Assembly (NCBI RefSeq): GCF_028712425.1
Contig: NZ_JAQTQD010000023.1
Location: forward strand, 1 to 35,024
DNA: 35,024 bases
Source of the DNA: Methanoregula sp.
GTDB taxonomy: Archaea; Halobacteriota; Methanomicrobia; Methanomicrobiales; Methanospirillaceae
Reading direction: 5' to 3'
Shown here: piece after piece, positions 1 to 35,024 of the stretch
How positions within the stretch are numbered: position 1 is the first letter of the stretch
Layout of the letters: every line of letters starts with the position of its first letter
The notes under the pieces: generated by a model
Database searches by the model: none
What the model saw: only the letters and a program-made list of their open reading frames with translations
What the model was told of the DNA's origin: nothing
Translations under genes and position numbers: made by a program

Positions 1-138
1 CAAAAGACTTATGAGTATGGCCCCCATATTTTGATACTATCCCAATTTGGGGTTGATTTCATTAAAAAAAGCTGGAATGAAGCGGATTCTAACCAGCTAA
101 AAGGTAGCTCCATAGCAGCACTTCTTCTGATGGTTTGA
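1..138 (+). CDS. C-terminal fragment of an unknown protein (cut by window edge)
   Basis: A frame is open from base 1 to a TGA at 136-138 and encodes 45 residues ending in SIAALLLMV. The residues are a plausible mix (GVDFIKKSWNEAD, hydrophobic end) and nothing in the other frames competes. The family is not recognised and the start lies outside the window, so this could also be chance open frame. No terminator is obvious after the stop. Confidence 0.35.
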   Translation, partial: QKTYEYGPHILILSQFGVDFIKKSWNEADSNQLKGSSIAALLLMV

Positions 139-219
139 TTCTCTAACAATTTTCAAAGAGCGCCAGCAAGAGTCAAATCCTGGCCGGGGCGCCTACACAT
201 TTCAAGTCCAAGTCTTTTC

Positions 220-21754: not shown

Positions 21755-22396
21755 ATGAGTACGATCTACTTTGTGATTCCCGATACACTCTCCGACTGGG
21801 AAGCAGGCCATGTCCTTGCAGAGCTTGGCTCGGGGCGCTACCTGAAAGACCCGTCACGAAGATATAATGTCGTCCTGTGCGGGGCAACGCCCGATACCAT
21901 AACAACCATGGGCGGCCTGCACCTGAAACCTGAAGTCCGCATCGGTGAGATCCAGCCGGACAAGGGAGACCTGCTCCTATTGCCGGGCGCGGACACCTGG
22001 CTTTTGCCTAAGCAGGAGCCTGTCATCGCAACAGTCCGCGAGGTGCTGGAGAGCAGAGCAACCGTGGGGGCCATCTGCGGTGCAACGCTCGGCCTTGCAA
22101 ACGCCGGCCTGCTGGACAACCGGCCGCACACGAGCAATGACCCGGGCGTTCTGAAGATGTTCTGCCCGAACTATCATGGTGAGCGGTTTTACGTAAACGA
22201 GCCTGCGGTAACGGATGGCAACCTCATCACGGCCTCCGGTCTTGCACCCGTGGAGTTCGCGTACCACATCTTCCGGCAGCTGGACGTGATGGCACCTGCA
22301 ACCCTCGAAGCATGGCACGGCCTCTTTACCACCCGGAGCCCCGAGTGTTTTTACGCGCTCATGGAATCGCTGCCCCGGCCGCAGGGAGCACGCTGA
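21755..22396 (+). CDS. DJ-1/PfpI family protein
   Basis: The 213-residue protein has the class I glutamine-amidotransferase-like fold. The nucleophile elbow is GAICGATLGLA with Cys108, and His125 (PHTSND) is placed like the second catalytic residue. The acidic residue that modifies the Cys in DJ-1 may correspond to Glu or Asp early in the chain (SDWEAGH, residues 13-19). Members include peptidases, chaperones and glyoxalases; a YdeA-like role is possible. It stands between two unrelated genes with ~60-70-bp gaps. Confidence 0.9.
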   Translation: MSTIYFVIPDTLSDWEAGHVLAELGSGRYLKDPSRRYNVVLCGATPDTITTMGGLHLKPEVRIGEIQPDKGDLLLLPGADTWLLPKQEPVIATVREVLESRATVGAICGATLGLANAGLLDNRPHTSNDPGVLKMFCPNYHGERFYVNEPAVTDGNLITASGLAPVEFAYHIFRQLDVMAPATLEAWHGLFTTRSPECFYALMESLPRPQGAR

Positions 22397-22465
22397 CGGG
22401 CGGGAGGCAGGGCAAGGTTTATCGTCCGGCCCGGGCATCAGTCACATGTCGGGAGGGAGCCGACT

Positions 22466-22714
22466 ATGGAGACCGTGATTGGAAAAGTGACCCACTACTA
22501 CCCGAGAGTGGGTGTGGCCGCTATCGTCCTCTCGGACCATATCACACGGGGGGACCATATCCACATCCTGGGACCGCATGACGATCTGCACCAGATTGTG
22601 TCCTCGATGGAGTACAACCACGAACCGATTGTTGAAGCCGATCCGGGGCAGGACATCGGCATCCGGGTCAATGAGCGGGTCCACGAGGGCGACCTGGTGT
22701 ACCGCGAGTATTGA
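22466..22714 (+). CDS. solo EF-Tu domain-II-like beta barrel
   Basis: The 82-residue product is a translation-factor domain-II-like barrel: IGKVTHYYPRVGVAAIVLSD, GDHIHILGPHDDL, then SMEYNHEPIVEADPGQDIGIRV and GDLVYRE. The same barrel forms the C-terminal part of U32 peptidase-type proteins and EF-Tu domain II, but here it stands alone with no GTPase. GGGAGGG upstream supports the ATG at 22466. The role is unknown; binding to RNA or to a translation component is a reasonable inference from the fold. Confidence 0.85.
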   Translation: METVIGKVTHYYPRVGVAAIVLSDHITRGDHIHILGPHDDLHQIVSSMEYNHEPIVEADPGQDIGIRVNERVHEGDLVYREY

Positions 22715-22727
22715 AGAACACTCACTA

Positions 22728-22748
22728 TTTTTAAAAACGATTAAAAAA
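22728..22748. terminator. bidirectional A/T terminator region
   Basis: TTTTTAAAAA and AAAAAA tracts lie in the 43-bp gap between the convergent barrel gene and the RidA gene. They offer U-runs to both strands, the usual archaeal termination signal. Confidence 0.4.
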
Positions 22749-22757
22749 GGAAAATCC

Positions 22758-23243
22758 TCACCGATTCTCTGCAACCATCTCGATCTCAACGAGCGCACCT
22801 TTGGGCAGGCCGGCAACCTGCACCGTGGAGCGTGCTGGAAAGGTATCGGTGAAATACGCACTATAGATCCGGTTGACCTCAGTAAAGTCGTTCATGCTGG
22901 TAAGATAGATCCGTGTCTGGACCACATCCGCAAAGGTAAGCCCGGATGCTGCAAGAACCGCCTTCTGGTTCTCCATGGCACGGGTCGTCTGTTCTTCAAT
23001 TCCTCCGGTCAGGTTCCCCGTTGCCGGGTCGATGCCAATCTGCCCCGAGAGCCAGACAAATCCCCCGGACCGTATGCCCTGGCTGTAGGGGCCGATGGGC
23101 TCCGGTGCCTGCCGTGAATACACGGACTGTTTTTCCGGCTGTGCTGCCCCGGGCGAAAGGAAATGCGTGTATAAGGCACCGAGCAGAATCCCGCAGACAA
23201 AGATCAGGACAAGCAGTATCAGTTTCTTGTGCAGTGCGTTCAG
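22758..23243 (-). CDS. RidA family protein with apparent N-terminal membrane anchor
   Basis: The core (residues from the GTG at 23123) is RidA: IGPYSQGIRSGGFVWLSGQIGIDP, then a helix with MENQKAVLAASG, TRIYLTSMNDF and the catalytic Arg region FPARSTVQVAGLPKGALVEIEMVA. RidA enzymes hydrolyse reactive enamines/imines to 2-ketoacids. From GTG 23123 the domain would lack its first strand. The frame continues upstream through KKLILLVLIFVCGILLGALY, a clear membrane helix, to CTG 23243, which has GGAGGG at 23251-23256 upstream at normal spacing. There is no ATG, GTG or TTG in that stretch. The protein is probably exported or membrane-tethered with a CTG start, or the start has mutated. Confidence 0.75.
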   Translation of the reverse strand: MNALHKKLILLVLIFVCGILLGALYTHFLSPGAAQPEKQSVYSRQAPEPIGPYSQGIRSGGFVWLSGQIGIDPATGNLTGGIEEQTTRAMENQKAVLAASGLTFADVVQTRIYLTSMNDFTEVNRIYSAYFTDTFPARSTVQVAGLPKGALVEIEMVAENR

Positions 23244-23319
23244 GATAAAACCCTCCGCAGGTGTTGACTCACTACAATTCAGGGTTCTGAAACTATATGT
23301 TTCTGCATTGCGGTGACGG

Positions 23320-23790
23320 GGGGATCTGTTCTACCCCCCACCCGTCCTTTAAAATAATTCACCCATACCCCCCTGCCAGGGGGTGGGGGGGTATCCGAAA
23401 GACCCCTCCCCCCCATTGGCCGGATCAGACCCCCCCTTACCATTTTCGGGTAGGCTCATGGGAGAGGTATCCGGCGGAACGACCATGGAAAATCAGGAGG
23501 ATTCCGTGTGCAATACTGCGCACATCTCAAAAATGGAGAGGGGGGTATCCGGTATACCCCCTCCCCACGTTGCGTTTCAAATCGATCAGACCTCCCCCCC
23601 ATAGGGGGAGGGGGGTATCCCGGACACCCCCCTGCCGGGATCTGAAATTGCAGGATAAAATGGGTGACGGGTAGTCTGTAACATGCACGGTCACGTCAGG
23701 AACAGTGATGAAAAAGGGGGACAAGGCGGGTGCCCGTTGGGAGGGGGGTATGCAGGAGACCCCCCCTCCGTCAGAGAAGGTTGGGCTCCG
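23320..23790. repeat. cluster of poly-G/poly-C inverted repeats
   Basis: A motif GGGGGGTATCC, 4-6 bases, then ACCCCCCTCC-like sequence recurs near 23385-23414, 23537-23566, 23604-23636 and 23741-23769. ATCAGACC followed by a C tract occurs at about 23423 and 23584. G and C runs of 5-8 bases abound. No gene is supported in 23334-23903: frames here only translate the repeat. Related sequence is found at 34080-34165. Confidence 0.65.
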
Positions 23791-23903
23791 TTAATGGCAG
23801 AGGGTCACAATAAGGGATGACCTTTGGAAGTCTGCCGTGAGTCCCTGTTTAGTCGTGAGAGGAAATCGTCTGAAATATTTGGATGCAGGTCAATGCCTGC
23901 GGT

Positions 23904-26900
23904 TTATCTTCGTCCTTTCCGGATCTTGAAATATGGCTCATCCCGGAACAATGTCGGGTTCTTCCTGCGGGTCCACCACGTTCTTGCAAAAAATCCGGTG
24001 ACACAGAGGATGATGATACCAACGATTCCCACCGCGAATAATGGAATTGCCGATCCCGTCTCCTTTGGAACTTCCGTTTCCATCGGTGCGGCCATGGTGT
24101 GAGTCACTGTTGGCCGTGCGGTATTTTTTTCAGCGGAGATCGTTCTCGTTGGTACCGGCTCCGATTCCATTACTTGTGGTGCGGTCTCCGGAATTATCGT
24201 GGCATTTTTGATCAGTGCCGTAGCAAAGTAGGAAAAGCCTTCAGTCGTTGCTTTGAACATGAATTGCCCGTCTTTCTTCCCGACGTACTCGGTGGGCAGT
24301 TTCTCCCACGCCTTGTCGTGGTACCGCAGCAACTGGACATCGCGGAAGGTCATCTCCTGTTCGTTCAGCCAGCTCTCGCTGACGGTGAACTCGATTATCC
24401 CCTGATGGATGTCGTCTTCCGTTGCGTGATAGACGTCAATCTTCTGGTACTCGTACACCTTTGCACCCGTATAGGGCAGTCCCTGTGGCAGGGAGCTGAT
24501 CTTCTCCGAGATAACGAACATATCCTTGAGAGTCCCGATGGTCTGGACGGATATTTTCGAGATATGGGTCTGGCCGGTCATCTGGTACGTGGACCAGGGG
24601 CCGGTGCTGGGATCGATGGGGGCGAGCTGGAATTTGGAAACGGACGACACCGTCGAGGACGATGTTGAAGGACCGTCATCTCCTCCGTTGACGGAGGAGC
24701 TGCCGGAGGAGGGAGTATCGGGAGTGCTGCTTGTCGTTGAGATCGAGGCCACCGAGAAGACCGAGAGGCCGTTGGGCGAGATGACGGTGAGCGTGAAGAT
24801 GCCGGCGTCGGGACCGGTCACCTCCGGTATCAGGATCTCGGTCGTGCCGTCTTCGGCCTTCCGGAGGACCGCGAGCTCGCTGACGTCGCCGTGTTCGTTC
24901 ACCCACACCTCGCTGACGGTCATGGTCAGGGTGGCAGACTCGATGATCGCATTGGCACCGCCGTCCCCGGCATTGGCGAGCTCGGCCTTCTGGATGTTTA
25001 AGGTGTAGGCGATATCATTGATCTCCTTGCCTTTCTCTTCTACGAAGAGGGTAAACGAGGTCTGGGCCGCCGGGTCCGGGTCCTTGGTGATGGTCTGCGT
25101 TATCGCCGCATCCTCACCCGGCATGGCGCTCATGTTCAGCGCGATCTGGACGGTCGGCGATCCCACGGATGCGATGGGTTCCGTAACCGTGACCGGTTCG
25201 GTGACGGCCCTGACCGAGCCGACCGTGCCGTTGACGATCCCGGCCCCGGGCTCGGGCGTACCCGCGAGGGTGATGGCCATGGATGACCAGCTGCTCGTGT
25301 TCGTGATGGTGACGATGTTGCCGCTCTGCGTGACATTGGCGGTCATGTTGATCGAGACGTTCTGGACGCCGCCCACGATCGTGGCCTTCACGTCATGGAC
25401 AATGAACTTGTTCTTCTCGACCACCGGTGCGATCACCGTGATGAACGCCGTTTTCGTTGCGGTGCTGCTGCCTGCTGCATTGGTCGCGGTCAGGCGGACC
25501 GTGTACGTCCCGTTGGTCAGGTACCTGTGGACCGGGTTCTGTTCGTCTGAGGTGATGCCGTCGCCGAAGTCCCAGGACCACGAGGTCGGGGCATTGGTGG
25601 ACCCGTCGGTGAATTTCACCGCGAACGGCATGTCGCCTACCGTCCGGTTGGCGATGAACGCCGGCACCGGCTTTACCACTCCCGGGGTAGGTGTCGGTGT
25701 TACTTCTGCGCCCACCGTGACGCAGTCCGGTATCGCGAGGAAGGAACTGCCGGCCGCGTTTGTCACGGTCAGGTTGACCGTGTAGTTGCCATTCGCCGCA
25801 TACGTGTGGACCGGGTGCTGCACTGTAGCATTCACGCTGGTGCCATCGCCGAAGTCCCAGTGCCAGCTGGTCGGGCTGCCCGTGGATTTATCCGTGAAGA
25901 CGATCGTCACCGGGGCGGTTCCGGCTTTCTTGTCCACCGAGAAGATCGCCACCGGCGCCGATCCTGCCGGACCCACCGTGATGTAATTGGTGACCCGGTG
26001 GCTGCTGCCGCCGGCCGCGTTCGTCACCGTCAGGTTGACCGCGTATGTCCCGGCGTTCAGATACACATGCTCGACATCCTGGACATCCGATGTGCTGCCG
26101 TCGCCGAAGTCCCAGAGCCAGGCGGTTGGTTCGCCCATCGTGGAATCGTCGTGGAACAGTACCGCCAGCGGGGCCGGGCCGCTCGTTACATTGGCGCTGA
26201 ACGCTGCAACCGGCGGGACTGTTGCTGCGGTCACGGTGATGTAGCCCGTGACTCTCTTACTGTTGCTCCCGGCGGAGTTGGTGGCGGTCAGGTTCACCGT
26301 ATACGTCCCTGCTGCTACGTAGGTGTGGACTGGGTTCTGCTTCGTGGCATTCGTGGCATCGTTGTCGCCGAAATCCCAAAGCCAGCCGGTTGGGGTGTTC
26401 GTGGATGTGTCCGTGAATGTCACCGTCAGCGGTGCGGTGCCCGACGCCGGCGCGGCGCTGAATGCCGCTACCGGTGTTGTGGCGGGAGTGCCGGGATACC
26501 GGACCGCGAGGGTTGCAAGACTGATCTTAAACGAGGGACCGCCATTCGTGAAGGCAAAGGTATTGAGTTCAGCCGGCTTGAGTTCCCGTGTCACATTAAA
26601 CGAATTATACTTCCAGTAATCATTGGATCCAAGGTTCAACGGGGTGAGGGAATTACCATTGAGCGTATGGGTTGCATCGGCACTGGAATGGGCAACCTCA
26701 GTTATTGAGGCTTCGGTCCACCCGGGGGCAAACGATCCTGCATCCAACGCGGTTGAACTGCTCCCGGTCATCCAGTCATTGCCGTGGTTAACAACGTATT
26801 TCACCTGGTCGGTGTCGCCATCGTTATAAGCAGCCACAAGAGTGACTGCCTTGAGCCGGCCATCATAACCACCATCCTTGCCAACCGGCGCACCAATATT

Positions 26901-29900
26901 GGATGAGGTCACGCGAATCTTCGGGTGGGCAGATGTGATCAGGTTTGTCACATCATACCATGCTTCATAGTCTGAGAAGACTTTCGTGACATGGTCGTTC
27001 AACGGGTACGCATAAGGCTGCTTGTTCGGCGAATTGGTATTCGATTCGGACTGGATATCGCAGTCTTCGGTGCCAAGCACGGTCTCGAACGTTCCGTCGC
27101 CATCGCCATCGAACTCGGTAGTGATGCGAACCGGGAGGTTATTGAGCCCTGAACCGGAATAGTCGTTCACGAAAACCTGTGCCCACGTGATATTACTGCC
27201 GGATGCAGGCAGGTCGTACGTGTAGGTGGCAGTTGTTCCATCCCATGGGGACTGGGAAAGGATGTAGAGACCACCAGAGACGGTCCCATTCCGGATCGTT
27301 GTCAGGGTATCGTGCAGTTTCCCGGCGGTAAACGCGTGCCGAATGGTCTTGTTGCTGCTCCCGTACATGGCATTCGTAACCGTGAGACGAATATCGTATG
27401 TCCCGACACGGGGGAAGGCGAGATTTGACGGACTCCTTGCCCCGGATCCAAACGCAGTCCAGGCAGATTCATTATAGTTTCGGTATTCCCACAGGTACGT
27501 GTCAACGGTTCCGGTGGATGAGTCCGTGAACGAGACCGTGACAGGCGCGAGCCCATGCGGCATCTTCCCTTCACCGTCAAGGACTACCGTGAAGTTGGCA
27601 ACCGGGGCATCTCCACCGGGGGAGCCGCCAGTAACAGCGATATATTCCGACATTACTTTAAAGTTACTGCCATCCGCATTCGTTGCGGTGAGATTCACCG
27701 TATAATTGCCGGCGTTCGCATACGTGTGGACCGGATTCTGTTTGGTGGCATTGGTGTTGTCCCCGTCGCCGAAGTCCCAGAACCAGCTGGAGGGCGTGTT
27801 GGTGGATGCGTCGGAAAACTGCGCGGTAAACGGCGCGGTGCCGGAGGTTGTGGCAACGGTGAAACCGGCAACCGGGACGGATGAGGCAGAGCCTTCGTAC
27901 TCGACTTTGAGGATGGCAGTGGCGGCCGCGAACGTCTCCCCGTCGCATTCGAAGATCGCCTCGTTGCCGGACTCTTTCACAAGGCTTGTCACTTCGCGGG
28001 AGTTATACCCGACCTGTGCTCCGCCATAATTCCAGGATTTGGTCCACTCGTTGCCATTGAAATAGAGGTTGCCCCGATCGTCCGCGTGCGGAGCGATGGT
28101 CAGGAGATCGGCGCGTTTCATCGTCGTGGTACTGATCGCCGGGCCCGTGAACGGGGCATGCGCCATGCCCGTATCTCCGCTGGTCTGGTAGAAGAGATCG
28201 AATTCGTCGTTGAGGAAGATGACCTTCCTGGTTTCGGCCGGATTCTCGTACACAACCACCAGCACCATGCCCGTGATGGGCGGCCAGGAATCCGTTACTG
28301 TCACATTGTTGCCGGAGGGATCGAACACATCCGTCACGTTATACACAACGGAACCGAAGGGATAATCGTAGCCCGAGTATCCGCCGTATCCTTTACGATC
28401 GGTATAGTGGGCGCTCACCGGCACGCGAATATTATTGAATACCGCCGCATGGGTACCATCCGCGGACACGTTCTTCATCACTTCGCTGTTGTCCCAGTTA
28501 TAGAACGAATAGAGACGGGCGTCGATGATTTTCGCACCTGTCGGCACGGGGAGGTTGGAGGAGGTCCACTGCGTTGATGCCGATTTGTAAGCCGAATTCC
28601 CGAACGAGACAATGAGGTTACCGTTCAGGTCGTACGTTCTTCGGGTGATAAGATCGCTGCCATCGGTGTAGCGCTTGGAGCCGTACCCGTTGTATACAGT
28701 CGCGACATGCGTAGAGTAGATGTTGTTTGTCTCATCTGTCTCTGTAATAAGATTATCCGGATCGCAGGTCACGGTGTAGGGTACTGATTCCCCATAGCGG
28801 TATATCGTGGGATCAGATATGTACGTAGTGACGGTATTTCCCGGGGGGATCGTGAGATTGTCGAGGGTCCACCCATAGGACACCCAGGATCCCGCGCCCG
28901 CGCTGCCATAGGTGACGTTTATCATCGTACCGTTATACACGATGCTCGCGTTGACCGGGCCGACGATTGTTCCCGGGCCGTTGTTGCGCAGGTCTATGCG
29001 GATGCCGTTGCCCAGGTTCGCGAAGGGGCTGTATACCGGGGGATTGATCAGCAGGTTGCTCTGGAGATCGCCGGCATTTGAAGATACCTGGATAAAATCG
29101 GATTTGATTATACTGTTGGATCCGTCGGGTCCGGTAACGGTGAGATTGACCGTGTAATTTCCGGCAGTGTAGTACGTATGACTTGGATTCTGCTCGTTAC
29201 TGTCCATCGTTCCATCATTATTGAAATCCCAGCTCCAGTTCGTTATTGTGCCGGTCGACGAATCAGTGAAGGTGACTGTTAATGGGACATAGCCATCAGT
29301 TAATGCAGTAGAGAAATTAGCCAGTGGAGGTGAACTGGTTACGGAAATATAATCCGTTTTTACCAGTGAACTGCTGCCTCCGGCATTTTTCACAGTCAGA
29401 TTGATAGAATATATGCCGGTATTTGTATATGCATACGTCGGATTCTGTTCTGTGCTGTCCACAATACCATCGTTGTTAAAATCCCACATCCAGACGATCG
29501 GGGAATTCGTGGATTTGTCCGTGAAATGAACCGTAAATGGTGCGGCTCCACCCGTTTCGCCCGCACTGAAATCGGCGACAGGGGGCGTTACACCCTGTGA
29601 TGTGAAGACGAGCGCCGGTTCTGTGTCTGCGAGTTGCCGAACAAATATCCAGTCATAGTATCCGGTATTCGATCCGCTTGACATCAGACTGACCGGAAGG
29701 ACGACCACAGGATTGCTCGATCCTATGGTATATGGATTGGATTCTGTCTGGATTGCAGACTGGGACTTATTCCAGAATAACTCGATCTTTTGATAGGAGT
29801 TGGGCAGGCTTCCCACACTTACACCTGTGGTAGTTCCATCGACTTTAGTATATATTGTGCCTTTTTTTGCAGCCCCAACACCAAAGAAACAACTGTTACT

Positions 29901-30599
29901 GCCGGAATATTCTCCAAATGACATTCTCTGTGTGTGCCCGTACAGGTTGGCATATGCACGTATTGAAGCGTTGTTGAGGAACTGAGCCCGGGTATCGATG
30001 ACCCTGCTTCCCTTCATGACAAGTTTGGAATCGCTGATTGTGGGGGAACCGGATATTATGCTCCACTTAGTGGTATTCAGTGAAGCTTCATCGAAGTGAT
30101 CGAAAACCGGGAACGTTGCATCGCCGTTGGATTCACTTTCGATCGTTGCATTTCCATAAAAAATATGTATGGCAACCGAATTTTCTGAACCTGAAGGGAT
30201 CCTCGGAATTTTAACCCAGAAAATTGCATTGTCCGCACCGGTTGGAGTTTCCATCCAGTAGTTCAATGCAGTCCCGTCATCCAATGCAAACCGGATATCG
30301 TTGAAGCTTGGCTGGGAGATTGTAGGCAAGAAGATTTTTCTCCCGGAATTCTCTCCCGAAACATTGTAGAGATCCAGTTCAACCTGATAATCTGTCAGTA
30401 CCGCCGGCGTTCCATTGATGAATACCGTATACTGTGAAGCAAAATTGTCGTGAGTCCACCCAGCAGCAGTAACAAAGCCGGGAACAAGGAGGAGTGACAG
30501 GAAAAATACCAGCGCAACAGGAATGGAATGACGACGGTGTTTCTGTATCTCTCTTCTATATATATTACTTATCTTCGTGCTACTTTTTTTAATTTTCAT
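23904..30599 (-). CDS. giant PKD-domain surface protein (DUF2341, CARDB, DUF3344, PGF-pre-PGF)
   Basis: A 2231-residue exported cell-surface protein. Order of parts: signal peptide (~28-46); DUF2341/lectin-like N terminus (~50-340); two PKD domains (~345-510, WMWDF and WSWDF); CARDB-like domain (~515-630); DUF3344 (~635-905); PKD (~910-990, WFWDFGDG); a diverged PKD (~1000-1090); a second DUF3344 (~1095-1365); four PKDs (~1375-1720, WLWDFGD, WLWDFGDG, WHWDFGDG, WSWDFGDG); a beta-rich part; Ser/Gly linker (~1955-1985); PGF-pre-PGF domain (~2000-2125); and a C-terminal membrane helix (~2183-2205) with a basic tail. PKD and CARDB are adhesive Ig-like folds, so a role in surface contact is likely. 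The AT-rich 5' third differs from the GC-rich remainder. Confidence 0.93.
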   Translation of the reverse strand: MKIKKSSTKISNIYRREIQKHRRHSIPVALVFFLSLLLVPGFVTAAGWTHDNFASQYTVFINGTPAVLTDYQVELDLYNVSGENSGRKIFLPTISQPSFNDIRFALDDGTALNYWMETPTGADNAIFWVKIPRIPSGSENSVAIHIFYGNATIESESNGDATFPVFDHFDEASLNTTKWSIISGSPTISDSKLVMKGSRVIDTRAQFLNNASIRAYANLYGHTQRMSFGEYSGSNSCFFGVGAAKKGTIYTKVDGTTTGVSVGSLPNSYQKIELFWNKSQSAIQTESNPYTIGSSNPVVVLPVSLMSSGSNTGYYDWIFVRQLADTEPALVFTSQGVTPPVADFSAGETGGAAPFTVHFTDKSTNSPIVWMWDFNNDGIVDSTEQNPTYAYTNTGIYSINLTVKNAGGSSSLVKTDYISVTSSPPLANFSTALTDGYVPLTVTFTDSSTGTITNWSWDFNNDGTMDSNEQNPSHTYYTAGNYTVNLTVTGPDGSNSIIKSDFIQVSSNAGDLQSNLLINPPVYSPFANLGNGIRIDLRNNGPGTIVGPVNASIVYNGTMINVTYGSAGAGSWVSYGWTLDNLTIPPGNTVTTYISDPTIYRYGESVPYTVTCDPDNLITETDETNNIYSTHVATVYNGYGSKRYTDGSDLITRRTYDLNGNLIVSFGNSAYKSASTQWTSSNLPVPTGAKIIDARLYSFYNWDNSEVMKNVSADGTHAAVFNNIRVPVSAHYTDRKGYGGYSGYDYPFGSVVYNVTDVFDPSGNNVTVTDSWPPITGMVLVVVYENPAETRKVIFLNDEFDLFYQTSGDTGMAHAPFTGPAISTTTMKRADLLTIAPHADDRGNLYFNGNEWTKSWNYGGAQVGYNSREVTSLVKESGNEAIFECDGETFAAATAILKVEYEGSASSVPVAGFTVATTSGTAPFTAQFSDASTNTPSSWFWDFGDGDNTNATKQNPVHTYANAGNYTVNLTATNADGSNFKVMSEYIAVTGGSPGGDAPVANFTVVLDGEGKMPHGLAPVTVSFTDSSTGTVDTYLWEYRNYNESAWTAFGSGARSPSNLAFPRVGTYDIRLTVTNAMYGSSNKTIRHAFTAGKLHDTLTTIRNGTVSGGLYILSQSPWDGTTATYTYDLPASGSNITWAQVFVNDYSGSGLNNLPVRITTEFDGDGDGTFETVLGTEDCDIQSESNTNSPNKQPYAYPLNDHVTKVFSDYEAWYDVTNLITSAHPKIRVTSSNIGAPVGKDGGYDGRLKAVTLVAAYNDGDTDQVKYVVNHGNDWMTGSSSTALDAGSFAPGWTEASITEVAHSSADATHTLNGNSLTPLNLGSNDYWKYNSFNVTRELKPAELNTFAFTNGGPSFKISLATLAVRYPGTPATTPVAAFSAAPASGTAPLTVTFTDTSTNTPTGWLWDFGDNDATNATKQNPVHTYVAAGTYTVNLTATNSAGSNSKRVTGYITVTAATVPPVAAFSANVTSGPAPLAVLFHDDSTMGEPTAWLWDFGDGSTSDVQDVEHVYLNAGTYAVNLTVTNAAGGSSHRVTNYITVGPAGSAPVAIFSVDKKAGTAPVTIVFTDKSTGSPTSWHWDFGDGTSVNATVQHPVHTYAANGNYTVNLTVTNAAGSSFLAIPDCVTVGAEVTPTPTPGVVKPVPAFIANRTVGDMPFAVKFTDGSTNAPTSWSWDFGDGITSDEQNPVHRYLTNGTYTVRLTATNAAGSSTATKTAFITVIAPVVEKNKFIVHDVKATIVGGVQNVSINMTANVTQSGNIVTITNTSSWSSMAITLAGTPEPGAGIVNGTVGSVRAVTEPVTVTEPIASVGSPTVQIALNMSAMPGEDAAITQTITKDPDPAAQTSFTLFVEEKGKEINDIAYTLNIQKAELANAGDGGANAIIESATLTMTVSEVWVNEHGDVSELAVLRKAEDGTTEILIPEVTGPDAGIFTLTVISPNGLSVFSVASISTTSSTPDTPSSGSSSVNGGDDGPSTSSSTVSSVSKFQLAPIDPSTGPWSTYQMTGQTHISKISVQTIGTLKDMFVISEKISSLPQGLPYTGAKVYEYQKIDVYHATEDDIHQGIIEFTVSESWLNEQEMTFRDVQLLRYHDKAWEKLPTEYVGKKDGQFMFKATTEGFSYFATALIKNATIIPETAPQVMESEPVPTRTISAEKNTARPTVTHTMAAPMETEVPKETGSAIPLFAVGIVGIIILCVTGFFARTWWTRRKNPTLFRDEPYFKIRKGRR

Positions 30600-30887
30600 A
30601 GTAATTACTACTAACTTTTTTAATTAATTTGTTAACAATTAAAACTTTTCAAATGATGACGAGCAGAAAATAATAGAATAATTTCCCTTCATTTTTCTGG
30701 GTAAAAATAAAATGATATCTGCCTCTTGAAAACAAGATATCCGCCGTTTATTCAGTTCCCGGCAATGAGGAACAGTTGTCTCTTTATAAATGAAAAGAAA
30801 TTCTTGCACGTATCATCTGCGTTTACCTGGTGGGGTGGGGATTATATCCCCTAATCCGACCAGTGTTCTTCTCGCAACGCATTCAAA
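30600..30887. other. AT-rich intergenic promoter region
   Basis: This stretch between the giant gene and the DUF3344 gene is strongly AT-rich. On the minus strand TTTTAATTG and TTAATTAAAAAAG near 30620-30650 are TATA-like and would serve the giant gene at 30599. No ORF or RNA gene is seen. Confidence 0.4.
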
Positions 30888-31886
30888 TCAGGATCCGGAT
30901 TGGATCTTCAGGAACGCAAGGGGTAGTTTGTAGAAGTTGGCTGTCCTGTTGTAAGACAGGTAATTATTCGAACCTATCACGGTATCTGAAAGTGATTTCG
31001 ATGAGAGTCCTGTCTGGTTTCCTTGGATATTGGTCAGGCCTGTGAGGGATCTTCCATTCCACGTATATACGCCATCATTGCTTGCCAGGTAATTTGCATA
31101 GATCTTTGCGGCAACAAACGAATTGTTGGATGCTCCATTAAACCAAGTCTCCCCTGGGACCTGATTATTGGCCTTGTATGTAATCGGGTCTTGCCCCTCA
31201 TTCACCCAGTAGCGGGTAACGTAGGCGCTGGAAGAGACATTGTACGCAACGACCAATGTTGCCTGTTTGATCCTGCCGTCAAATTTCGGGCTCGTATTTG
31301 TAGTAACGATGTTGACATTGACGTCACTCGTTGTGATTAAATTCGTAACATCGAATGCCGAGACGTAATCGCTGGTGTCTCTTGAAAGGCTGACGAAATA
31401 ATCATCAGGATAAAATACACTTGTCGTGTTGATACCGGAGGTATTAAAATACTCCAAATCAAGAGGCTGGTTTTGTGCTAACGTGTATGCATTATTCGAT
31501 CTCAGAGTGACTGACTCGTATCCCTTATAATTCGACAGCATATTTCCGCTGTAGACCGTGACATAGAGTCGCGCGAATTTAACATTTCCCCCGGTTGCCG
31601 GTACCGTGAAATTCGCCCAGACATCCCGGTCGATCGCACCTGAGTTATCCCATGTCGTCGTCGATGTATTGACCCAGAAATCACCGTTTACCACACCGGG
31701 CATCCCTGCGATCGTTTCGGGCGGCAGTCCCTTGTAGTAGTCATCCGCCGACACCACGCCGGCCATCGACATCACCGCAACGATCACCAGCGCCATCATG
31801 AGCGCGAGCGACCTGCGCGGCCGGGCCCTGCCCTTCAGCAGGGCGGCAAACCGGCCGTGCCTGCTTTCTGTTCGTTTCGTTTCCAT
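30888..31886 (-). CDS. secreted DUF3344 domain protein
   Basis: The 332-residue product has a Lys/Arg-rich n-region with RPRR, a hydrophobic helix (LALMMALVIVAVMSMAGVV) and a likely cleavage after VSA, then one DUF3344 domain covering nearly all of the mature part (DVWANFTVPATGGNVKFARLYVTVYSG, FDVTNLIT, KFDGRIKQATLVVAYN, YWVNEGQDP). It ends in FLKIQSGS right after the domain, with no membrane helix or sorting tail, so it should be released or bound non-covalently. The same domain occurs twice in the giant neighbour. The signal-peptide codons are GC-rich, the domain AT-rich. GGAG precedes the ATG at 31886. Confidence 0.9.
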   Translation of the reverse strand: METKRTESRHGRFAALLKGRARPRRSLALMMALVIVAVMSMAGVVSADDYYKGLPPETIAGMPGVVNGDFWVNTSTTTWDNSGAIDRDVWANFTVPATGGNVKFARLYVTVYSGNMLSNYKGYESVTLRSNNAYTLAQNQPLDLEYFNTSGINTTSVFYPDDYFVSLSRDTSDYVSAFDVTNLITTSDVNVNIVTTNTSPKFDGRIKQATLVVAYNVSSSAYVTRYWVNEGQDPITYKANNQVPGETWFNGASNNSFVAAKIYANYLASNDGVYTWNGRSLTGLTNIQGNQTGLSSKSLSDTVIGSNNYLSYNRTANFYKLPLAFLKIQSGS

Positions 31887-32347
31887 TGGTTTTACTCCAT
31901 GTCCGCGAGGCCGGCCATGGATAGGATGGTGTAATCATCAGCAGACCGGTTGCGAACAGGTATGCCTCTGCGCAGAAGCTATTAATACGTTTCTGCTTAT
32001 TCGTAACACTTTATTTTACAATTTTTCTATTTATGATACTGAGCCGGGGATAATGGTATAAATAGTACATTATACGGATCCTCCTATACGATAGACGAAT
32101 TTGTATAGAATCTGCGGTATCTTCCGGAGGGGATTTTTCCAGCGGGCGGGGGCCTGTATTTAGGCTACGGCCCGGTGAAGCGAAGGACCGGGATCTCTCA
32201 TTGGCAGGGAAAACACAGAGCCGGGATCACGGGTGGGTGGCGCGTACAAACCGCAGGTCCGGACCGGGAAAATTCCGGACGGGCGTGGGCAGGATCAGGG
32301 TATTGATGTGCGGGCCGGCACCAGGTAACCGGTTTGGCCGGCATGCC
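31887..32347. other. intergenic region upstream of the DUF3344 gene
   Basis: On the minus strand TATTAATAG near 31985 and CATAAATAG near 32030 are TATA-like candidates for the DUF3344 gene. The part 32120-32345 is GC-rich; short frames on both strands there resemble no family and have no good start signals. Confidence 0.35.
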
Positions 32348-32365
32348 ATAACGAAGGTTCGTTAT
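32348..32365. promoter_or_regulatory. 18-bp perfect palindrome
   Basis: ATAACGAAGGTTCGTTAT is self-complementary over all 18 bases. It lies between the 3' end of the toxin gene and the DUF3344 promoter region. It may be an operator or, in RNA, a hairpin downstream of the toxin-antitoxin operon. Confidence 0.4.
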
Positions 32366-32397
32366 CCCGGTTTCCGTATGCAACGGGTATATGCTTT

Positions 32398-32406
32398 AAA
32401 AAAAAA
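32398..32406 (-). terminator. poly-T tract after the toxin-antitoxin operon
   Basis: Nine consecutive A on the plus strand give a T9 run on the minus strand, ~135 nt after the toxin stop. Such runs terminate archaeal RNA polymerase. Confidence 0.4.
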
Positions 32407-32539
32407 GTTCAGGCGCTTCGCGTGATCGTGGCAGTATTTTACCCGTACGGAGCTTGAAAAAACCAAAACCAGGATCCTGAAAATTCCCCGATGGCCACCA
32501 TCGTTGAAATCTCTCCCTAAACGCTGCACGGAAAGAGGA

Positions 32540-33052
32540 TTATTCCGGATCGGGATATTCCTCAACAGACGCCAGTGCTCTGCAATATAATTGATCGTCA
32601 ATATAAAAACCCATCCGTTCCCGGAGGGCATTGAGTTCGAACCGGAGCGAATCGATCGTTCCCTCCCGTTTTGCCCTCATGAGGATACCGATCACCCCAG
32701 TCTTACGAAGGCCAAACGTGGCGGCTACCCGACGCGCATCGGTTTCATCCAGGAGAATAAGATCTGCATTCAGCTCCAGGGCAAGCACTATTGCTTCTGC
32801 CTCCCCACGGTGCAGATCCTGACACAGCAGATTCACCAGATGGTTGTTATCAGGTTTCTTCCGGGAGATCCATCCCTGGCCACATGCCTCCCGGACTTCA
32901 GCCGCTCCCGGTAATATATCCCCCGAGGTGGCAATCTCATCCCATACCGACGGAGGGATAATGATCTCGCTGAACATTTCATGCAGGAGACCCCACCTGC
33001 CAATCCCCGCGAGATTGATCAGGGGAGACGAGTCACTGATCACAGCGGGCAT
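32540..33052 (-). CDS. PIN-domain toxin, DUF3368 family
   Basis: The ~170-residue protein has the PIN nuclease layout: the first acidic residue in AVISDSSPLINLA, Glu in HRGEAEAIVLALE and Asp in LILLDETDARR, which together bind the metal ion. Such toxins cut RNA when not held by their antitoxin. The ATG at 33052 begins one residue before the first strand; ATG 33064 would add four residues. The gene overlaps the end of the upstream UPF0175 gene by 20 bp, the usual type II arrangement with the antitoxin first. Confidence 0.9.
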   Translation of the reverse strand: MPAVISDSSPLINLAGIGRWGLLHEMFSEIIIPPSVWDEIATSGDILPGAAEVREACGQGWISRKKPDNNHLVNLLCQDLHRGEAEAIVLALELNADLILLDETDARRVAATFGLRKTGVIGILMRAKREGTIDSLRFELNALRERMGFYIDDQLYCRALASVEEYPDPE

Positions 33053-33293
33053 ATTCAATATCATCTTCGAGATCCTGGTCCGTGTAATGCCGGGGTATTT
33101 TTCGTGCCCTTAACAGGGTATTGAATTGCCAGCGATCCACTCCTGCAATCTGGCAGGCATTACCGGAAGACACTGCACCTCTCTGGTACAATGCCAGCGC
33201 CAGTTCTTTTTTAAGTTCGTACTCCAGATCATCAGGTGGAAAGCGGATCCCATGTAAGACATGTTCCGGAATTTTAAGACAGATATCTCCCAT
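33033..33293 (-). CDS. UPF0175 family antitoxin
   Basis: The 86-residue protein matches UPF0175: an N-terminal strand (DICLKIPEHVL), then ELKKELALALYQRGAVSSGNACQIAGVDRWQFNTLL, a helix-turn-helix that recognises DNA, and a C-terminal tail (YTDQDLEDDIEYA) that would cover the toxin. It probably represses its own operon. A TATA-like TTTATTA lies near 33346-33352 on the minus strand, ~55 nt upstream. Confidence 0.88.
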   Translation of the reverse strand: MGDICLKIPEHVLHGIRFPPDDLEYELKKELALALYQRGAVSSGNACQIAGVDRWQFNTLLRARKIPRHYTDQDLEDDIEYARCDQ

Positions 33294-33492
33294 AGATTCA
33301 CCGATCTGGAAATACTTTTCCTGATGATAGGATATGCCCCGTGCTTAGTAATAAATCCTAGTATGGGTGGAATCTGTCGGGCAGCCTGAGACAACGGATG
33401 CACGCGGATGTCAGGCCCGGAATCATGAGCCGGACGGGTATGCGGCAGGGGAATTTGTCAGGACACAGTACAACAATACAAAAAAGAAACCA

Positions 33493-33639
33493 TCAAGAAT
33501 CATCCGCCGAAACCACGCCGGCGAACGACATCACCGCAACGATCACCAGCGCCATCATGAGCGCGAGCGACCTGCGCGGCCGGGCTTGGAGCAGGTTCGG
33601 GAACCTCCCGGGCCTGCTTTCATTACGAGTTGTCTGCAT
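33493..33639 (-). pseudogene. orphan signal-peptide copy of the DUF3344 gene
   Basis: An ATG at 33639 opens 48 codons ending at TGA 33493-33495. The product is a signal peptide nearly identical to that of the DUF3344 protein: RPRRSLALMMALVIVAVMS, then FAGVVSADD, and stops two residues after the cleavage site. At DNA level ~85 bp (33500-33586) match 31741-31827 with only about three differences, including an identical run of over 50 bp. No DUF3344 sequence follows. It is a remnant left by deletion or recombination, or a parked cassette. Confidence 0.75.
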
Positions 33640-33797
33640 TGTAGTTTCACCACTTCCCGCAGAGGGTTTCTTTTTGCTGATGTCAAATTCCGCTTATTAC
33701 AAAACTCCAATACTTCACGATTTTTTCATGGACTTAAGAAACATGTAAGACATAACCAGATAGCGGGCGCCGGATTTGGTTATTCTGCGAAAATTTT

Positions 33798-33954
33798 CAA
33801 TCGCGATCATGATGTGTTAGTTATGGAGGCTACAATCGGATAATTATCCTACAAAATGCATGTACATGCTACAAAATTTTTGGCTCTCCTACGTGATCGC
33901 CCGGCTATTGCAATCAAGTGTTGCTTAAAAAAATTCGAGCAGGGTATGATGGGG
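33798..33954. repeat. outlying copies of the ~25-bp repeat family
   Basis: CAATCGCGATCATGATG (33799 on) matches the CGATCACGATCACGATT segment at 1890-1910. CAATCAAGTGTTGCTT (33911) followed 25 bp later by CGAGCAGGGTATGATG matches the array units at 1550-1966. No gene is seen in 33640-34165. Confidence 0.45.
33838..33877. promoter_or_regulatory. tandem 12-bp palindromes with flanking direct repeats
   Basis: GGATAATTATCC (33838-33849) and GCATGTACATGC (33858-33869) are both perfect palindromes, 8 bp apart. The second is flanked by direct repeats TACAAAAT. This looks like a protein-binding site, but no start codon is close; the orphan signal peptide starts 200 bp to the left. Confidence 0.4.
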
Positions 33955-34079
33955 TAATTTTTTTCCGGATATCGATTGCGATGGTAAGAGTGGTATAACT
34001 TTTCATTCAGATCTTTAGCAGGTAGCGTATATTGCCAGGATTCATGGAGGAATAATCAGGAAAGTTCTGAGGCTAGAGG

Positions 34080-34165
34080 GGACTGTCCCGAATCCCCCCA
34101 CCACCTTGTGATGAAAATCGATCAGACCCCCCCCCTCCGTGTTTTTTAGGAAAGGGGTTACCCCC
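34080..34165. repeat. poly-C repeat copy at right end of the island
   Basis: AATCCCCCCACC, then ATCGATCAGACC followed by a C tract, then GGGGTTACCCCCCTACC. The ATCGATCAGACC core matches 23581-23592, 10.5 kb away. It directly abuts the 3' end of the minus-strand gene ending at 34166. Confidence 0.55.
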
Positions 34166-34978
34166 CTACCGTACTACTACGTCCGCTTTCGGATCAAACG
34201 GGTTCTTCCGCATCGCGAGGCTGAATAAGTACGGGTAATGGTTCTTCAGGTACTCCATATACTTCAGCCACTCGGGCACGAGCCGGGAATAGACCCGCTC
34301 CATATCTCCTTCAAGGTGGGCGATATCGGCTGGAGGGAGGGTCGAGAGGTCGTCGCGTGCTTTCAGCTCCTCGGTCAGGTGGGTCACTGCCAGGATCAGA
34401 TCCGTGAAGGTCTCGTGCTCGAAAACCGTCGGATTCTCGATGATGCGAAGGAGGAAGTCCTCGTTGCCGTCAAGGAATGTGCGGAGCGATTCCCGGTCAA
34501 TCCCCGCCGGATCAACTTTACACTTCCACACGTCAAGGGATGCCTGCGCCTGGAAGAACCGGTCTGCTGTCCAGTCGGCGGGGCTGACCTCCAGCTCCTT
34601 CTGCATGGGGATGGTGCAGGGATCGGCTTTCGAGAGCCGGGAGAGAAGCGGTGTGCCGACGCGGGAGAAGAAGATCCCGATCACCATGTTCAGCTTCTCC
34701 ATGCGCTGCTGCTTCTCCCGGGATTCCAGCAGCTGGTCGATGATCAGCGTGACACAGAGAACCTCGACCGGTATGAAGACCAGGTCGCCGACAAAGAAGA
34801 TGCCAAGGTGGTGCAGGTCGTGGAATGCCAGGTAGTGGACGGTCATCAGGAGCAGCGTCAGGGTGACAAGTGCAAGCCCCACGAGCACCTTCCAGCGGGT
34901 GTATTCCTTCATGCCGGAGATATCCGGCACGATACGTGATAATGAATCCGGTACCGGTGACCGTCTGGTCAGGGCCAC
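34166..34978 (-). CDS. two-helix membrane protein of unknown function
   Basis: The 270-residue product (from GTG 34978) has two hydrophobic helices (about residues 29-48 and 56-80), a charged coiled-coil stretch (DQLLESREKQQRMEKLN) and a long cytoplasmic helical domain (residues ~95-260) with LTDLILAVTHLTEELKARDDL. No known family is recognised; the layout resembles small archaeal membrane proteins with a soluble helical tail. A TATA-like element lies only ~15-20 nt upstream of the GTG, so the transcript may start inside it and ATG 34912 (MKEYTRWKVL) may be the true start, giving 248 residues. Confidence 0.8.
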   Translation of the reverse strand: MALTRRSPVPDSLSRIVPDISGMKEYTRWKVLVGLALVTLTLLLMTVHYLAFHDLHHLGIFFVGDLVFIPVEVLCVTLIIDQLLESREKQQRMEKLNMVIGIFFSRVGTPLLSRLSKADPCTIPMQKELEVSPADWTADRFFQAQASLDVWKCKVDPAGIDRESLRTFLDGNEDFLLRIIENPTVFEHETFTDLILAVTHLTEELKARDDLSTLPPADIAHLEGDMERVYSRLVPEWLKYMEYLKNHYPYLFSLAMRKNPFDPKADVVVR

Positions 34979-34990
34979 AGGAAAAGACCG

Positions 34991-34998
34991 GATAAAAG
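34991..34998 (-). promoter_or_regulatory. TATA box for the last gene
   Basis: CCTTTTATC on the minus strand. Its distance predicts a transcript start near 34967, downstream of GTG 34978 and upstream of ATG 34912. Confidence 0.4.
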
Positions 34999-35024
34999 GA
35001 GAGAAAATGTGATGGATGTTATGC

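Follow-up and report, generated by a model that had tools for sequence, protein, structure and literature searches.

Probable exchange of a signal-peptide-coding segment between Methanoregula surface-protein genes, with an old, probably truncated copy of the segment

Introduction

Domain-limited gene conversion between paralogues has been described in methanogens for mtrA-1 and mtrA-2 (PMC4632066). That case also comes from the Methanomicrobiales, and in it one part of two paralogues is homogenised while a fused part stays different (PMC4632066). Such conversion is thus already known in this order (PMC4632066), and what would be new here is its small-scale form, limited to a signal segment. 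We analyzed a window consisting of the whole 35,024-nucleotide contig C22 of a Methanoregula genome (G000; 2.67 Mb in 56 contigs), in which signal-coding DNA of a DUF3344 surface-protein gene recurs in a short ORF without a mature protein, hereafter the orphan. In mtrA the homogenised part is the MtrA domain in a conserved operon, whereas here it is a 146-bp signal segment of variable, island-borne genes that also has a protein-less copy.

The sapA homologues of Campylobacter fetus are an S-layer gene family with a near-identical 5' end and a divergent remainder, and the present genes resemble them in being one surface-protein family of that build. The sap locus rearranges (PMC3887049). The genes studied here differ in being archaeal and few in copy number.

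Antigen variation in Anaplasma (msp2) and Borrelia (vmp/vls) involves conserved expression 5' ends and silent copies (PMC4534519). The shared traits are a conserved 5' region, diverging surface-protein bodies, truncated copies, and homologous exchange (PMC4534519). In those bacteria the variable part resides in the silent copies and the 5' end in the expression site, whereas the orphan consists of the conserved 5' end alone and has no variable region of the kind that marks a silent copy. Also unlike them, G000 has no large silent repertoire but two complete module genes, one orphan, and one fragment, as known from the sequence of one genome per species. In Haloquadratum walsbyi, archaeal surface-protein genes lie in variable, strain-specific surface-glycoprotein islands, and halomucin genes have conserved ends and diverging centres; the part of that account drawn on here reports neither a signal-only orphan nor a signal segment common to paralogues (PMC3119063). 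As for DUF3344 itself, an adhesin survey lists it as a cluster whose function is ambiguous, another paper treats it as a likely plasmid-borne surface protein, and a literature search on archaeal signal-segment exchange found nothing. The locus offers a clear and testable case, in archaea, of a single gene whose export signal and exported domain would have separate histories, with a tract running from start codon to cleavage site. If general, this would help to explain how surface proteins of archaea can vary or be newly gained and still be secreted.

Results

A signal-peptide segment is repeated in an ORF without a mature protein

An unprompted repeat search returned a direct repeat of 86 nt at 31741–31826 and 33500–33585, with 83 of 86 bases identical (96.5%; E = 7e-35 in a search of the same genome). 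The original prediction had placed this repeat and a 48-codon ORF here, and both were recovered (Table 1). The orphan codes for a full signal peptide of Sec type, and its stop codon comes three residues (DDS) past the predicted VSA/D cleavage site, one more than had been proposed. The adjoining sequences, said to be unrelated, are so downstream but not on the 5' side, where the N-terminal 16 to 18 codons of the orphan and the window gene are homologous as protein (59% identity in DNA). Upstream of codon 1, the orphan resembles other sequences over only ~12 bp. A Pfam search gave no PF11824 match in the orphan; the window gene scored 142.5 bits and a second gene, on contig C48, 64.6 bits (cut-off 27.2).

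The invariant twin arginines (PRRS(L/F)AL) led us to consider Tat export. A search for TatC (PF00902) gave no match in G000, which is 97% complete, and the control was positive in 11 of 14 genomes. Export by Sec with signal peptidase I was assumed because the genome has no TatC.

Table 1. Features of the window around the two signal-peptide segments
Feature	Position	Strand	Remarks
DUF3344 surface-protein gene (window gene)	30888..31886	minus	332 aa; signal 1-47, mature PF11824
Signal-peptide segment of window gene	31741..31886	minus	98% to C48 gene, 97% to G033_a
Module leader/promoter region	31887..32152	minus	about -266 to -1; up to -164, 96% to G033_a
Orphan signal-peptide ORF	33493..33639	minus	48 codons, product MQTTRNESRPGRFPNLLQARPRRSLALMMALVIVAVMSFAGVVSADDS then stop; orthologues G033:C1:817495-817638, G061:C14:4677-4826
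Orphan, 86-bp core	33500..33585	minus	83/86 with window gene; 85 bp identical to sister-species gene G033_a
Orphan, 5' part of different ancestry (about -12 to codon 18)	33586..33651	minus	~80% to G021 gene, 57-61% to G000/G033 genes
Orphan, conserved 3'-end sequence	33441..33499	minus	stop codon and T-rich ~56 bp, common to G033 and G061 orphans
Large PKD/DUF3344/DUF2341/CARDB surface protein adjoining window gene	23904..30599	minus	different signal peptide
DUF3368 (PIN-type) protein between window gene and orphan	32540..33064	minus	Pfam
UPF0175 protein, probable antitoxin partner	33033..33293	minus	Pfam
Dispersed ~285-bp repeat between orphan and island edge	33784..34076		many copies in G025, several in G021, fragments in G033
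10.4-kb segment missing from syntenic G033 site	23766..34125		matches to 23765 and 34126 adjacent in G033

The module is rare and occurs in several genes

The signal module was found in five of 39 Methanoregula genomes (one genome per species). A sequence search of G000 against itself located it in the window gene, in a gene at C48:3939–5051 (98% identity over the 146-bp signal region, C48:4906–5051), in the orphan, and in a broken N-terminal fragment at C48:6465–6539; with the copies in four other species, the two initially noticed are clearly not the only ones. In G000, the locus corresponding to that of G033 is cut short by the end of a contig (C24), and a further copy may lie in that assembly gap. 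G033, on a single contig, carries gene 'a' (G033_a) at 808 kb, an orphan at 817.5 kb, and fragments. In G061 one gene and an orphan are separated by 1.4 kb; G025 has two genes, of which one has a broken reading frame in the signal, and G021 has one. Very large surface-type proteins adjoin the module genes in G000, G033, G025, and G021. Among public contigs, a signal-peptide alignment search matched only the metagenome-assembled genomes Methanoregula OWC_0057 and OWC_0058.

Several irregularities were seen in these copies. On G025 contig C7 (L029 8623–8761), the signal of the DUF3344 gene has a 2-bp deletion that puts N-terminus and hydrophobic core in different frames. The G061 DUF3344 gene (L068 1846–3426) encodes ~150–190 more C-terminal residues than its relatives. 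At 808–818 kb of G033 contig C1, leader-only and N-terminus-only module fragments are scattered among toxin-antitoxin-type genes, and a DUF234 ATPase gene lies between the two copies of a 467-bp direct repeat (98%).

Leader, signal, and mature parts have discordant histories

The original prediction held that, if the signal region behaves as a separate exchange module, several genes should share it but differ in their mature domains. The window gene, the C48 gene, and G033_a do so, with 94–98% DNA identity in the signal and 33–37% amino acid identity in the mature part. The clearest single case is the C48 gene, which appears from its sequence to be a gene of another lineage with a 146-bp segment, from start codon to cleavage site, swapped in, as expected of such a module. 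Its leader is 80% identical to that of the G025 C7 gene and 62% to that of the window gene, its signal 77% and 98%, respectively (leader versus signal identity to the window gene, p = 5e-15), and its mature part is nearest to G061. The sharp tract ends and differently derived flanks of the C48 gene are the pattern of gene conversion.

In the signal, the window and C48 genes are 97.9% identical to each other and 96.5% and 94.4% identical to G033_a, and they share bases that G033_a lacks. Paralogues of one genome are thus closer in the tract than they are to orthologues, as in concerted evolution. The signal tree pairs the two on a starred branch (98/97), one of few such branches in a tree of only 144 columns, and places the G000 and G033 genes with the orphans, apart from the G061, G025, and G021 genes. 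The mature tree disfavours a grouping of the window gene, the C48 gene, and G033_a (AU 0.036), a modest rejection in which both G000 mature domains are long branches, so that the trees give only moderate evidence. Breakpoints vary by pair (-164..144, 0..144, 54..138, and -106..116).

Contig C24 of G000 (7.8 kb of DUF3344 genes) and C10 are 96–98% identical to G033 at 820–840 kb. Since the DUF3344 genes of C24 are 98% identical to G033 and SRP54 93%, a surface-protein region was probably exchanged recently between the two species.

The orphan is an old mosaic

The orphan is, judged from its orthologues, not a fresh duplication, since G033 and G061 each have an orthologous ORF that encodes the signal alone and is followed by the same ~56 bp. 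Over 560 bp (-66 to +493), the orphans of these two species are 93% identical, and between +18 and +198, stop codon and T-rich 56 bp included, that of G000 matches both at 87–89%. All three lie upstream of a DUF3344 gene on the same strand. Between orphan and gene, Pfam identified HEPN in G061, nucleotidyltransferase/HepT in G033, and UPF0175/DUF3368 in G000; such UPF0175 with DUF3368, or nucleotidyltransferase with HepT/HEPN, neighbours are by their families of toxin-antitoxin type. In G021, the locus syntenic with that of G033 and G061 contains the gene and no orphan. The G000 orphan is 80% identical to the G021 gene in codons 1–18 and matches G033_a exactly over 85 bp of its core, and its 3' end is orphan-specific. 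We consider it most likely that the orphan stems from the 5' end of a gene, which a toxin-antitoxin-type insertion severed long ago and which has taken part in exchange.

The original prediction saw in the orphan a possible donor for recombination. As a silent cassette kept to supply signal or 5' sequence to surface-protein genes, it could account for the 85-bp identity between the G000 orphan and G033_a. The two G061 copies differ in core type (RRSF..LVGMLSL in the gene, RRSL..IVAVMSF in the orphan), and the G000 and G033 genes have the orphan type, which may therefore have entered genes in the ancestor of these two species. That pattern could reflect orphan-to-gene transfer in their ancestor or the descent of both from one such gene; the comparison is unrooted for direction, and the orphan could equally be the recipient. 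The orphan may be a donor, but the tract most recently exchanged in G000, between the window and C48 genes, has ATG at the M/F codon, bases not present in the orphan. Swapping only a conserved signal peptide would also give no surface diversity. We regard a maintained silent donor as unlikely, though the least unlikely of the alternatives.

Slightly less probable still is a functional small gene, in which case the orphan would encode a signal peptide and have a start, a ribosome site, and a T-rich end of its own in three species. The ORF and the following ~56 bp are conserved in all three, and between the G033 and G061 orphans synonymous changes are in weak excess, with six versus three non-synonymous (p about 0.01–0.04), and all indels are in frame. 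These changes hint that the orphan's frame matters, directly or via conversion with genes, and conversion with real genes can also give a signal of purifying selection. The module leader/promoter is intact only in G033, broken by a dispersed element in G061, and gone in G000, a pattern that speaks against conservation as an expressed gene; the G061 orphan has a Gln within the hydrophobic core, and the N-terminus of the G000 orphan has been replaced. Searches near the orphan found neither a hairpin terminator nor a sigma-70-type promoter nor a structured RNA, and RNA around the stop codon folds no better than shuffled sequence.

Synonymous sites and the proposed explanation

Signal and mature parts of secreted paralogues can differ in evolutionary rate. 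Purifying selection could accordingly keep signals alike while the mature parts of ordinary paralogues diverge fast, with no exchange at all. This account is very improbable, as synonymous sites are near-identical too: the window and C48 signals differ by 2 synonymous changes in 37.8 sites (dS 0.055), whereas their mature parts are saturated (pS 0.81, 35% amino acid identity; signal versus mature, p = 4e-19). Codons are not frozen in the segment, in which the G061, G025, and G021 genes use many other synonymous codons. Signal dS between the window gene and G033_a is 0.053, and for four other genes 0.28–0.35, about six times higher (p = 0.002). The different nearest relatives of the C48 leader and signal also speak against it.

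These comparisons lend good support to an exchange of the module by short-tract gene conversion. Our overall reading, which we hold to be probable, is that the signal-coding segment is a recombination module and that the orphan is an old truncated copy of the 5' module whose core has been exchanged with functional genes. Short-tract gene conversion, or an equivalent homologous exchange, would move the segment, also between species, among genes with mature parts too dissimilar for recombination. The tract would be bounded at the cleavage site, where homology ends, and would sometimes take in leader and promoter. Before the split of G000, G033, and G061, a toxin-antitoxin-type insertion directly behind the 5' module would have severed the mature domain; the orphan, its product presumably without function, would then have been kept or inherited, its core exchanged with functional genes and its ends replaced.

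A toxin-antitoxin-type insertion behind the orphan fits better than a simple recent deletion. Of the suggested deletion scar, an old truncation is likely, but the orphan as a recent leftover of a second DUF3344 gene in G000, though it is indeed such a gene's 5' end without the rest, is hardly credible, as the same truncated form and junction recur in G033 and G061 and sequence searches found nothing similar to a decayed mature DUF3344 domain behind it. Orphan signal-peptide ORFs can, as a warning, be old recombining relics and not new small genes.

A bolder extension, which we think improbable, is a dedicated 5' cassette system of archaea, a conserved promoter-plus-signal module with a maintained protein-less copy that is routinely grafted onto divergent surface-protein bodies. 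If true, newly arrived or diversified domains would gain expression and export in a signal-exon-like manner.

The module sits in surface-protein islands

The module sits in mobile, or at least often relocated, surface-protein islands, since the 10.4-kb segment of the window and C48:1–8372 are both missing from syntenic G033 sites. The latter is a second PKD/DUF3344 segment, with nucleotidyltransferase/HepT genes, and homology to G033 starts at C48:8373. A tRNA-targeted island was considered and rejected, as the window has no tRNA. Rfam gave no match to a known RNA element in 22300–35024 at E up to 1. The dispersed ~285-bp repeat has about 20 copies in G025 and contains no transposase. Both island edges (flanks 23537–23592 and 34075–34128) carry a similar G-rich/C-rich repeat of the GGGGGGTATCCGG type, which is clustered at 23.36–23.75 kb.
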